A DNA stretch of 37,727 nt. Origin: Phycisphaerae bacterium (GTDB taxonomy: Bacteria > Planctomycetota > Phycisphaerae > UBA1845). Shown piece after piece: positions 21,741 to 25,852 of the stretch (positions within the stretch are counted from its first letter, which is position 1; the number at the start of each line of letters is the position of its first letter). The position numbers were made by a program, and so were the translations under genes. Below the pieces are notes generated by a model. It had not been told where the DNA came from. It saw only the letters and a list, made by a program, of their open reading frames with translations, and searched no databases. The stretch is from NCBI GenBank assembly GCA_029260025.1, contig JAJDDZ010000043.1, positions 1-37,727 of the forward strand, in the 5' to 3' direction.

Positions 21741-21912
21741 TTCAATCTTCTCAGCACAACGTGATATGGCCTCCTCACAGCTCAGTTTTCTCAATCTACC
21801 TAAACTGCCGCCATAGGACCTAGCTCCAGAACTGGGAATCAAACTTCAATTGATGAACCGCTAGATCGTCCATTTGCCAAAAAAGCGTGAAGCGGGCATC
21901 CTCTATTGGCAC

Positions 21913-21920
21913 AAGGAGGT
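21913..21920 (+). promoter_or_regulatory. Shine-Dalgarno AAGGAGGT deciding the lipoprotein start
   Basis: A full AAGGAGGT stands 6 nt before ATG 21927, which rules out the TTG at 21906 used in the ORF track. Confidence 0.85.
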
Positions 21921-21926
21921 ACTTCG

Positions 21927-22442
21927 ATGCGAAAAATATGGAAATCCCTATCCAGAAACACTGCCCCCCTCTTCGGTATCATCCTGATCGCCTCCGGCGG
22001 GTGCGAGTTGGCGATACCGGATGAAACAACGCCGGATAGCGAAATCGGACGACCTGCCGAGCAGTTCGTAACCATCGCCTTCCGAAATCTCTCAACTGTC
22101 AATACGGTAGATGTAGAATTCCATGCGGTGACATCGGTGGAAGTCAGCCTCCCCGAGGGGCTATTCACTGACGAAAACCGGGTGTCGGAAAGCTTAGGCG
22201 TAGCAGGAACCGGGTTGCTCATCCCAGGAGCAACCGACATCCTTGAGATCTCCTGCACAGAAAACCTGGTCATCGGAACCGCAGGCGGCACATTCCTCGA
22301 CAATGAAACCGGCGAACTCAATGGACGCGGGGAACCACGGTGGCTGGACGCGACTTCGGCGGGACTCTGTGGCGCGATCGTCGGATTTACGTTTGAGAGC
22401 AGTGGCGATACATTCGCAACCAAAGTCGAGATCAGACGCTAA
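21927..22442 (+). CDS. Small putative lipoprotein of unknown function
   Basis: The 171-aa product has a basic start (MRKIWKSLSRN), a hydrophobic stretch and ASGGC (Cys26), a slightly atypical lipobox. The mature part begins with acidic and Thr-rich sequence and then reads as a compact beta-rich domain (VTIAFRNLSTVNTVDVEF, then repeated strand-like segments). Two further cysteines (in LEISCTEN and SAGLCGAI) could form a disulfide. I recognise no family. A perfect ribosome-binding site suggests good expression. It lies 72 bp before the FHA-GAF-PP2C gene on the same strand, so cotranscription is possible. Between them is an imperfect inverted repeat around CGCCATGGCG (22459-22471). Confidence 0.75.
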   Translation: MRKIWKSLSRNTAPLFGIILIASGGCELAIPDETTPDSEIGRPAEQFVTIAFRNLSTVNTVDVEFHAVTSVEVSLPEGLFTDENRVSESLGVAGTGLLIPGATDILEISCTENLVIGTAGGTFLDNETGELNGRGEPRWLDATSAGLCGAIVGFTFESSGDTFATKVEIRR

Positions 22443-22514: not shown

Positions 22515-24140
22515 ATGGCCACACTTCGATACCTAGACGACAACGGGCAATGTCTGGCGTACAAGCTCAGCACAGGTCAGGTTCTGATCGGTCGTGCAGA
22601 GACATGCCAAGTCACGGTCGAGTCCGACATGATTTCTCGGGAGCATGCCCGGGTAGAGCTGACTCCAGACGGACGTTTTCGCGCCGTCGATCTCGGCAGC
22701 CGCAACAAGACCTTCGTCAACGGTGAGCAGATCACCGAAACGATTCTGACCGCCGGAGACATCCTTCGCGTGGGCGACCGCATCTTTGAATTCGTCGACG
22801 AAACCAACGTCTCCGAAGTTCTCGACATGCGATTTCTCACGCCGGAGAAGGGCGAGCCCCCAGGGGCGGAGTGGGCCAAGATCAAACAACCCATTTCGCT
22901 GACCATCGCCCAGCTCGAGCGCATCGCTCAGGTCGGCGCGGACAAACCCCTCACCGGGCGCGCCGAAGATGTAGCCTCAACTGCCCTCGGTCGAGTTATT
23001 CTCGATCTCAATGCAGAGCGCGGGTTCATCGCCCTTCGCGGAGACAAGAAAACGGACCTGCGACCCATCAGCCACCGCGGGCTTGCCCAGACCCCGGGCG
23101 GATCACTCACACCGGTCAGCGAAGCTTTCGTCATCGCCCCGCTACTCCAGCAGGTCGCCGGTTGCTATCCGCAGACAGCACGTCAAATGGACAAGAAACT
23201 CGGATACGCCGTCACAGGCGTCGTCGCTCCGCTGACCGACCGCGGTGAAATCATCGGCGTGCTCTACGTCGATCGCCCCGGAGGAAAAAGGCCCTTTCCA
23301 GCAACAAGCACCGCCTACGCCACCGCCGCCGGCGCACAAATCGGCAGTTTGCTTGGGAGTACGCTTCGTAGTTTGCCCAACACAGCCGCACGCGAGAGCG
23401 CAGCCTGGATGACAACGATCGGCCGCGTCCAGACCGCCCTTTCCGAGACATCAGAATCCAGCGAAGCTTACCAAGTCGCCGACAAGTGCTTCCCTGGTCG
23501 CGCAAGGCGCGGCGACTTCATTTGGGTTGACCATATCGATGAACATCGTTTGTCAATTCTTTTGGTCGACTGCGGCGGACACGGTATGACCGGACTCGCG
23601 CAAGCTGCGTTGATTCGCGGCGCTGTCTCGACAGCAGTTCGAATTGACGATGACGCCGTCATGGACCCCGCAACGATTTTCAACGCAATCAACACAACCC
23701 TCGCCAACTCGAGCGCAAGACAAGTGGTACCTACCATCTACCTCGCGATCGACAGCTCAATTGGAAAGCTCTCCTACATCAACGCCGGCGGTGTACCGCC
23801 TCTCCTAATGCTCAAGGCCGGGCGACTGCTTACGATGGATCAGACTTCGCTCGTCCTCGGCGTTGACGCCGACTATTCCTACGAAGCAACCCGCGTTGAT
23901 CTCCCCGACGCTTTTAGGCTCATCGCATACACCGACGGATTGATCGATGCCGCCAGCGCAGCAGGCGAAGCCCTGGGAAGCGACCGACTGCACGACGCCT
24001 TGCTAGTAAGCGATTCCTTCGGATCGGCTGAAGAGGTCCTCGCCCGAATCACGAAACTCTGGGCGACGCACCTTTCCGGCGCCATCCCAGACGATGACGC
24101 ATCCGCTCTCGTAGTCGCGCGGGGATGGGTCGCATCATGA
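22515..24140 (+). CDS. FHA-GAF-PP2C (SpoIIE/RsbU-type) phosphatase
   Basis: The 541-aa protein has three modules. Residues 20-95 form an FHA domain (IGRAETCQV, SREHARVEL, GSRNKTFVNG), which binds phosphothreonine peptides. Residues about 130-285 look like a GAF domain (ALGRVILDLNAERGFIAL, then GVLYVDRPGGKRPF). Residues about 315-538 are a PP2C-type serine/threonine phosphatase of the SpoIIE/RsbU class, with RRGDFIWVD, LLVDCGGHGMTG (Asp352), AYTDGLIDA and a final DDDASALVV metal site. The canonical GDVSGHG reads VDCGGHG. It would dephosphorylate a partner, for example an anti-anti-sigma factor or a secretion component, in response to phospho-signals. Its stop overlaps the start of the GspE-type ATPase by ATGA, so both proteins are made together. 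Confidence 0.87.
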   Translation: MATLRYLDDNGQCLAYKLSTGQVLIGRAETCQVTVESDMISREHARVELTPDGRFRAVDLGSRNKTFVNGEQITETILTAGDILRVGDRIFEFVDETNVSEVLDMRFLTPEKGEPPGAEWAKIKQPISLTIAQLERIAQVGADKPLTGRAEDVASTALGRVILDLNAERGFIALRGDKKTDLRPISHRGLAQTPGGSLTPVSEAFVIAPLLQQVAGCYPQTARQMDKKLGYAVTGVVAPLTDRGEIIGVLYVDRPGGKRPFPATSTAYATAAGAQIGSLLGSTLRSLPNTAARESAAWMTTIGRVQTALSETSESSEAYQVADKCFPGRARRGDFIWVDHIDEHRLSILLVDCGGHGMTGLAQAALIRGAVSTAVRIDDDAVMDPATIFNAINTTLANSSARQVVPTIYLAIDSSIGKLSYINAGGVPPLLMLKAGRLLTMDQTSLVLGVDADYSYEATRVDLPDAFRLIAYTDGLIDAASAAGEALGSDRLHDALLVSDSFGSAEEVLARITKLWATHLSGAIPDDDASALVVARGWVAS

Positions 24141-25813
24141 TCGCCGCCGAAGCAGCCGAACAGCTCATCGTATCCAAATTGATCAGTAGCGGAACGATCC
24201 CAGCGATCCAGTTGGATAACCACCGGCGCGAATCAGAGATCGACGGCGTCCCGCTCATCGAGGTCTTGATTCGCAACGATGTTGTCAGCGAAGCAGACGT
24301 TGGACAGTTCTACGCCGACGTGTCGGGCCTACGATTCCTAGACCTCACCAGAAGAAGACCAACAAACGCATGGGTGCTCACCCTTCCCGAAAACATCGCG
24401 AGACAGCGCCAATGCTTGCTCTTTGGGGAAGTATCGGGGCAACTCGTCGCAGCTGTCTCCGACCCCATCGATCCCGCGGTCCGTTCGTCAATCCAGGCGC
24501 GTTTTGAACGCCCCATCCAATACGTCGTAAGCCCCCGGTTCCAAATTCGGGCCGTTCTCGATGAGGTCTATTCAGAAGCCCGCGCCAAGGGCGCAAGAAT
24601 GACCGCACTCCCCCCGCCCTCAGCGCGAGTGGCTGAGTCCACCGGTACTGGCGTGAACATCGTCGAACAGTTTGATAGTATCATCGACGAAGCAGTCGAT
24701 CGCCGAGCGAGCGATATCCATGTCGAACCAGAAGTCGACCGTGTTCGAATCCGTTTGCGCATCGACGGAAGACTTATCGAAGCCCGCGCCTTCCCCGCAG
24801 AGGTGGCCGCCGCACTAGTGTCGAGAATCAAGGTTTTATCCAACCTCGATATCACGGAACGCCGCAAACCCCAAGACGGACGTTTCACACAACGCAGCTT
24901 TGATCAAAATATAGACGTACGTGTCGCCGTGATTCCCGGCGCCCGAGGCGAACGCGTCACCCTGCGGCTCCTCGCCCAAAACCGATCCGCCCTTTCCCTA
25001 GAAAGTCTGGGAATGGGAATCGAGCTGAGACAAGCGTTCGAGCGACTGATTCATCGCCCGTACGGGATCATTCTAATCACCGGCCCTACCGGAAGCGGAA
25101 AAACCACGACTCTCTACGTCGCCCTTCAGCAAGTCAACACCATCGACCGACACATTATTACGATTGAAGACCCCGTCGAATACGAAATGCCGGGCATCAA
25201 CCAAGTCGCCGTTGACGAGGAATATGGCGTCTCGTTTTCATTGGCACTGCGTAGCATCCTCCGTCACGACCCCGACATCATTATGGTCGGAGAAATTCGC
25301 GACGAGTCCACGGCAAGGCTCGCCATCGAGGCATCACTCACCGGTCACCTCGTTTTCGCCACACTACACACCAACACAGCCGTTGGCGCAGTGACAAGAC
25401 TCTTAGACATGGGGTGCGAACCCTATCTGGTCGCGAGCGCCCTCATCGGAACAATGGCACAAAGACTCGTTCGGAAAATCTGCACGAACTGTCGCAGAGG
25501 ATACGAGCCAACCCTCGCAGAAAAAAAGATCATGGGCATCCCCCCAGAACGCCCCGGCGTGCAAATCTTTCGAGGAGCAGGTTGCTCGCGATGTCTGCGT
25601 AGTGGCTACTATGATAGAGCGGGCGTCTTCGAGTACGTACCCTTCGATCAGGGTTTAGCCAACCTTGTCATAGAAAAAGCAACAACAGAGATGCTACAAC
25701 AATACGCACTCGAACATGGCGCGATCACCTTGCGCGACGACACCATGGCCAAGGTCCGCGAAGGCGGAACGACGCTTGAAGAAGCACTCCGCGTCACGAC
25801 CTTCACCGACTAG
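24137..25813 (+). CDS. GspE/PilB-family secretion ATPase with MshEN domain
   Basis: The 558-aa protein begins with an N-terminal MshEN-like domain (residues about 1-145), which in relatives can bind c-di-GMP. The bipartite hexameric ATPase of type II secretion/type IV pilus systems follows. Walker A is GPTGSGKT (316-323), the Asp box region is TIEDPVEYEMPGINQ, Walker B is IIMVGEIRD (381-389), and the His box contains TGHLVFATLHTNTA. The tetracysteine zinc site of GspE/PilB assembly ATPases is present (CTNC and CSRC, Cys 449, 452, 483, 486), which favours an assembly ATPase over PilT. The ORF track start 24125 is replaced by ATG 24137, which overlaps the phosphatase stop. No gspF, secretin or pseudopilin gene is nearby. 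Confidence 0.92.
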   Translation: MIAAEAAEQLIVSKLISSGTIPAIQLDNHRRESEIDGVPLIEVLIRNDVVSEADVGQFYADVSGLRFLDLTRRRPTNAWVLTLPENIARQRQCLLFGEVSGQLVAAVSDPIDPAVRSSIQARFERPIQYVVSPRFQIRAVLDEVYSEARAKGARMTALPPPSARVAESTGTGVNIVEQFDSIIDEAVDRRASDIHVEPEVDRVRIRLRIDGRLIEARAFPAEVAAALVSRIKVLSNLDITERRKPQDGRFTQRSFDQNIDVRVAVIPGARGERVTLRLLAQNRSALSLESLGMGIELRQAFERLIHRPYGIILITGPTGSGKTTTLYVALQQVNTIDRHIITIEDPVEYEMPGINQVAVDEEYGVSFSLALRSILRHDPDIIMVGEIRDESTARLAIEASLTGHLVFATLHTNTAVGAVTRLLDMGCEPYLVASALIGTMAQRLVRKICTNCRRGYEPTLAEKKIMGIPPERPGVQIFRGAGCSRCLRSGYYDRAGVFEYVPFDQGLANLVIEKATTEMLQQYALEHGAITLRDDTMAKVREGGTTLEEALRVTTFTD

Positions 25814-25820
25814 CGCACAA

Positions 25821-25852
25821 GAAGACCCTCACGAATGAACGCGAGGGTCTTC
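25821..25852. terminator. Bidirectional terminator between gspE-type gene and zinc-ribbon gene
   Basis: GAAGACCCTC (25821-25830) and GAGGGTCTTC (25843-25852) form a perfect 10-bp stem, extended by a CG/CG pair inside the loop. It lies between the two convergent stop codons. T tracts are weak on both sides. Confidence 0.72.

Follow-up and report, generated by a model that had tools for sequence, protein, structure and literature searches.

Organisation of the phosphatase-ATPase locus

The window analysed here, a 37,727-nucleotide stretch of DNA from a Phycisphaerae bacterium, is one contig (C331) of an assembly of 4.13 Mb in 393 contigs that is 88.7% complete. Two genes on its forward strand encode a 541-residue Ser/Thr phosphatase, in which FHA and GAF domains and a long helix precede a SpoIIE/PPM domain (22515-24140), and a 558-residue motor ATPase of the GspE/PilB family (24137-25813), which comprises an MshEN-like N-terminal region, a T2SSE core and a tetracysteine motif. 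The mechanical list of open reading frames places the ATPase start at 24125; the alignment of 16 ATPase orthologues begins at the second ATG, at 24137 (MIAAEAAE), and the ATPase start therefore overlaps the phosphatase stop as ATGA (24137-24140, forward strand). Coordinates, domains and the orthologue-backed start all agree with an earlier sequence-only reading, which had described an FHA-GAF-PP2C phosphatase and a GspE-type ATPase overlapping by ATGA. The exact overlap is restricted to the closest relatives (the genome itself, G473 and L031), while elsewhere the two genes are separated by 7-374 bases, counted from where the matched coding stretch ends.

Upstream of the pair, the forward strand encodes a small exported protein of 178 residues (21906-22442). 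The sequence-only reading had called it a lipoprotein; the small protein is present, but it displays only a weak lipobox and no Pfam or NCBIfam match, and is best described as a possible lipoprotein. Among the 16 loci compared, counterparts were found only in Dive96 (62%) and G018 (45%), and the protein probably does not belong to the core of the module. A strong hairpin (25821-25852, forward strand; RNA fold -21.1 kcal/mol, z -4.9) separates the ATPase stop from a convergent zinc-finger (zf_Tbcl) gene and is possibly a terminator shared by the two genes; it has no T-tract and was not returned by the terminator scan. As had been claimed from the sequence, no secretion partners lie nearby: GspF and secretin gave no match on the contig, and inspection by eye recognised no pilin among the window's large open frames. 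The window also has no STAS or kinase gene linked to the pair.

Structure and motifs of the phosphatase

Pfam assigns an FHA domain to residues 23-87 (3e-17), a GAF domain to residues 153-277 (1.6e-4, barely above the cut-off) and a SpoIIE-type PP2C domain to residues 342-535 (1e-27). The PF07228 score of 97.6 bits lies well above the cut-off of 25, and the metal-binding aspartates are present as Asp334 (GD334), Asp352, Asp474 (TD474G) and Asp527/528. The FHA domain (PF00498) displays the residues of phosphothreonine binding, namely GR (IGR), SxxH (SREH) and N..N (N...VN). Both sets of residues are conserved across the phosphatase orthologues with the single exception of G042, where Glu replaces one catalytic Asp (TEG). 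In the AlphaFold model (mean pLDDT 88.7) the FHA, GAF and PP2C domains can be made out, and a long helix extends from residue 263 to 309. By fold the model best matches, among solved structures, the RssB, RsbU and SiaA PP2C domains, together with phosphothreonine-binding FHA domains.

The known substrates of RssB, RsbU and SiaA are STAS or STAS-like regulators (PMC11418112, and in part general background). In these genomes two other machine types have a STAS gene immediately before their ATPase, and since the phosphatase shares the fold of STAS phosphatases, a STAS switch protein would be its likeliest substrate, likelier than the paired ATPase. The same genome encodes a paralogue with FHA-GAF-SpoIIE architecture (about 26% identity) that has no ATPase neighbour (L089:4727-6340, G000:C248), and similar matches occur in most sampled genomes of the order.

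The motor ATPase and its N-terminal region

The ATPase displays a T2SSE domain (Pfam, 1e-122) and an MshEN match at residues 64-150 (3e-14). Walker A, Asp box, Walker B and His box are all found within a catalytic core that spans the full PF00437 profile, and these motifs, as well as the CxxC...CxxC motif, are conserved in 16 of 16 orthologues, whose cores show a mean pairwise identity of 74%. By sequence the PDB hits are GspE and PilB, and structures of both align with the model (mean pLDDT 83.8) over about 380-390 residues. The protein is thus predicted to be an active motor of the PilB/GspE type, and by their motifs both members of the pair look intact. The sequence-only reading had allowed for a complete T2SS with its own GspE and a degenerate copy here; other machines do possess their own ATPases, but degeneration of the window copy is ruled out by its conserved catalytic and zinc motifs.

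Scores fell below the curated cut-offs of all three type-specific models: 513.7 bits for GspE (TIGR02533, cut-off 630), 484.7 bits for PilB (TIGR02538, cut-off 675) and 394 bits for TfpB (NF053534, cut-off 850). In a maximum-likelihood tree of 53 ATPase cores the 16 orthologues cluster as a single group (98/98) with a long stem, separate from the PilB, second PilB-like, C342, C292 and GspE types; the tree program warns of long branches, and the single-group status is well supported while the sister group is not.

The MshEN match had been read as a possible c-di-GMP-binding domain. The published motif is a tandem RLGxx(L/V/I)(L/V/I)xxG(L/V/I)(L/V/I)xxxxLxxxLxxQ (PMC5013675), and an MshEN receptor was defined by two RLGxx..xxG....LxxxLxxQ motifs about 5 residues apart, a pattern that the window ATPase does not display. 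It retains 3 of the 14 key residues (range 1-7 over the 16 orthologues), as compared with 9-12 in the genome's own PilB, the second PilB-like and the C292 ATPases and 5 in C342 and the genome's own GspE. On the 22-position motif score the own PilB, second PilB-like and C292 ATPases reach 16-19 and C342 reaches 12, while the window ATPase family scores 8-12, against 9 for the own GspE, in which no motif can be recognised. Most sister ATPases in the genome therefore keep much of the motif, and the window family scores at the level of an ATPase without it, which makes c-di-GMP binding unlikely on sequence grounds. Gating of this ATPase by c-di-GMP was rejected as an explanation, as the tandem motif is absent.

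Distribution and conservation of the pair

In a 61-genome sample of the order, 15 genomes have orthologues of both the phosphatase and the ATPase, and the rest have neither. Fourteen of the 15 are all the sampled members of the window's family; the fifteenth, G006, belongs to a different family. Within the 51-genome family, a group of uncultured Planctomycetota, 42 genomes encode the ATPase, 46 the phosphatase, 40 both and 3 neither; many of these genomes are fragmented, such that the absence of a gene may reflect incompleteness. As the co-occurrence is clade-bound, the Fisher p of 0.03 obtained within the family, uncorrected for phylogeny, is weak. The two genes are adjacent and co-directional, with the phosphatase first, in 28 of the 40 family genomes with both, over many genera, and kept apart in the other 12. 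The pair is adjacent also in G006, and the arrangement is thus not due to chance; adjacency is probably ancestral and was later broken several times. Six family genomes, including the single-contig G466, have the phosphatase without the ATPase, which suggests that the phosphatase has some role independent of the motor.

Across the 16 loci compared, the phosphatase and the ATPase are the only broadly conserved neighbours of each other. In 6 of 15 relatives the gene immediately preceding the phosphatase encodes an esterase-like protein (L078:6543-7946, L076:6543-7904); this gene is not found in the window. In a sample of 391 other Planctomycetota genomes, with three candidates scored per genome, no orthologue passed E 1e-128, and the one further match (42% identity) belongs to a different clade. 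Conservation of the pair beyond close relatives, the check proposed with the sequence-only reading, therefore extends to the whole family and one genome of another, but not across the Planctomycetota. All matches in a plasmid collection were below 60% identity, and a literature search found no study of an FHA/SpoIIE phosphatase-GspE pair in Planctomycetes.

Motors and platforms elsewhere in the genome

A full-genome search for gspF/pilC and secretin genes, which the sequence-only reading had suggested, located platforms, secretins and pilins, all encoded outside the window. On contig C95 a type IV pilus locus encodes PilB, PilC and PilT together with a second ATPase that is PilB-like. The second PilB-like ATPase (L062:16725-18548, G000:C95) has the same arrangement in relatives such as G018. 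The genome also has T2SS-like loci on C320 and C261, a Tad-like locus on C119 and one machine that seems to be split across C292 and C134, apparently cut by the contig ends. The T2SS GspE-GspF segments of C320 (L069) and C261 (L074) are 91% identical over 3.56 kb and represent either a duplication or a strain mixture in the assembly. In the C292 (L065:953-5303) and C134 (L068) loci, HD-, GGDEF- and STAS-domain genes lie directly upstream of the ATPase of a pilus-like machine, and a STAS gene precedes the ATPase of another machine type as well (L156:6717-7136). Exclusive co-occurrence of the pair with the C292/C134 machine was considered and ruled out: the ATPase of that machine is of a type found widely in the order and thus does not explain the restricted distribution of the pair.

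Platform families were paired with ATPases using relatives of better assembly, with linkage defined as GspF/PilC within 6 kb. No window-type ATPase has a GspF within this distance (0 of 15 genomes), as against 59 of 78 other ATPases (Fisher p 2e-8, not corrected for phylogeny). ATPases outnumber GspF platforms by exactly two in 12 of the 15 genomes, the two surplus ATPases being the window type and the second PilB-like copy of the type IV pilus locus. The exceptions are the window genome, which is fragmented, G046 and G006, where one gene is partly masked. A third GspF of G006 seemed to lack an ATPase; the C-terminus of its cognate ATPase is present beside a masked run of N. The sequence-only reading had offered the pair as a possible switch for a machine encoded elsewhere. 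Such machines do exist, but because their platform families already have cognate ATPases, the window ATPase is probably a surplus motor and not the missing motor of one of them.

A proposed signalling module and its alternatives

We consider it an even proposition that the pair constitutes a lineage-specific signalling module, in which a Ser/Thr phosphatase is joined to a supernumerary extension-type motor that works on the platform of another machine. In favour are the intact catalytic motifs of both proteins, the frequent co-directional adjacency and the retention of both genes in the 12 genomes where they lie apart, the identical distribution in the order sample, the unlinked and surplus status of the ATPase with its separate clade, and the fold of the phosphatase. 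The activity, target, platform partner, sensed signal and direction of control of such a module might be as follows. The GAF domain would sense a cue and the FHA domain would dock a phosphothreonine protein, while the long helix may pass the resulting state to the PPM phosphatase in the manner of RsbU-type enzymes. This enzyme would then reset a target in its phosphorylated form; the likeliest candidate is a STAS-domain switch protein, ahead of the motor. As the ATPase lacks a dedicated platform, it would engage one encoded elsewhere, most simply PilC of the type IV pilus, and could supplement the ATPase of that machine as a conditional extension motor. PilB/TfpB of Acinetobacter baylyi show that one machine can use two extension ATPases; as a rule such motors are platform-specific, which counts against a shared platform (both PMC11656802). 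The clade-bound co-occurrence, phosphatase-only genomes, the lack of a linked STAS or kinase gene in the window and the Asp to Glu substitution of G042 also weigh against a module.

One alternative, that the ATPase is the missing motor of an ordinary scattered T2SS or type IV pilus, appears improbable. An example of such a machine would be C153, where GspF and pilin-like genes lack an adjoining ATPase. GspF of this type is, however, found across the whole order, which mostly lacks the window-type ATPase, and it adjoins an ATPase of its own in G008, G022 and G026; that of G008 shares a clade with C342 from the window genome, and this clade is separate from the window type. The C153 platform thus belongs with the C342-type ATPase, which largely rules out the window ATPase as its motor. 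Hardly more probable is a proximity due to history only, with an independent FHA-GAF-PP2C regulator of a STAS or sigma pathway lying next to an unrelated extra ATPase. The separated and phosphatase-only genomes and the ATPase-free paralogue agree with this, and are set against adjacency in most family genomes with both genes and in another family, the overlap within the genus, and the identical distribution in the order sample.

More plausible than either, and still doubtful, is that the ATPase no longer drives a filament and serves under phosphatase control as a regulatory partner, for example in a mixed hexamer, as a decoy or as a signalling ATPase. The lack of a linked platform in all 15 genomes, the long stem of the clade and the N-terminal region without the c-di-GMP motif are consistent with such a role, and Myxococcus xanthus PilB is reported to act in the regulation of exopolysaccharide (EPS) (PMC5544727). 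The retention of all catalytic and zinc motifs and the mean core identity of 74% are nevertheless what is expected of a working motor. Returning to the signalling module, we tentatively extend it, as a possibility on the unlikely side, to a phosphatase-gated interchangeable motor: the lineage would have gained a further pilus or secretion motor with no machine of its own, Ser/Thr phosphorylation would replace c-di-GMP control, and the cell would switch motors on a shared platform. How a motor is chosen among several extension ATPases, and whether platforms accept more than one, are open questions in the type IV pilus field (PMC11656802). The surplus motors described here form a defined family, are linked to a phosphatase and, as judged by sequence, have no c-di-GMP site; they could connect Ser/Thr phosphorylation to motor choice.

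Comparison with known systems

In the type VI secretion system PpkA-PppA-Fha, a PP2C phosphatase and FHA reading control a secretion machine, and a PppA structure appears among the fold matches of the window phosphatase. The arrangement differs in that FHA and PP2C are fused in the window protein, the partner is a PilB/GspE-type ATPase and no T6SS genes were seen beside the pair. The phosphatase resembles RsbU, RssB, SiaA and SpoIIE in its PP2C fold, metal aspartates and the sensor domain and helix that precede the phosphatase domain. It differs by its N-terminal FHA domain and the lack of an adjoining STAS or kinase gene, and scores below the cut-offs of both the RssB and the SiaA models. The ATPase shares with GspE and PilB of T2SS and T4aP (PDB codes 4pht, 5oiu and 5tsh) the core fold, Walker A/B, His box and tetracysteine motif, although it remains below both curated cut-offs and has no platform gene within 6 kb in 15 genomes. 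The Pfam MshEN match recalls Vibrio MshE, which is gated by c-di-GMP; the tandem RLG...LxxxLxxQ motif of MshEN (PMC5013675) is absent here. By comparison with PilB/TfpB of A. baylyi, the window ATPase is not TfpB by sequence and is linked to a Ser/Thr phosphatase. The two cases are alike in that the cell has more than one PilB-family extension ATPase, both of which act on one type IV pilus system in A. baylyi (PMC11656802).
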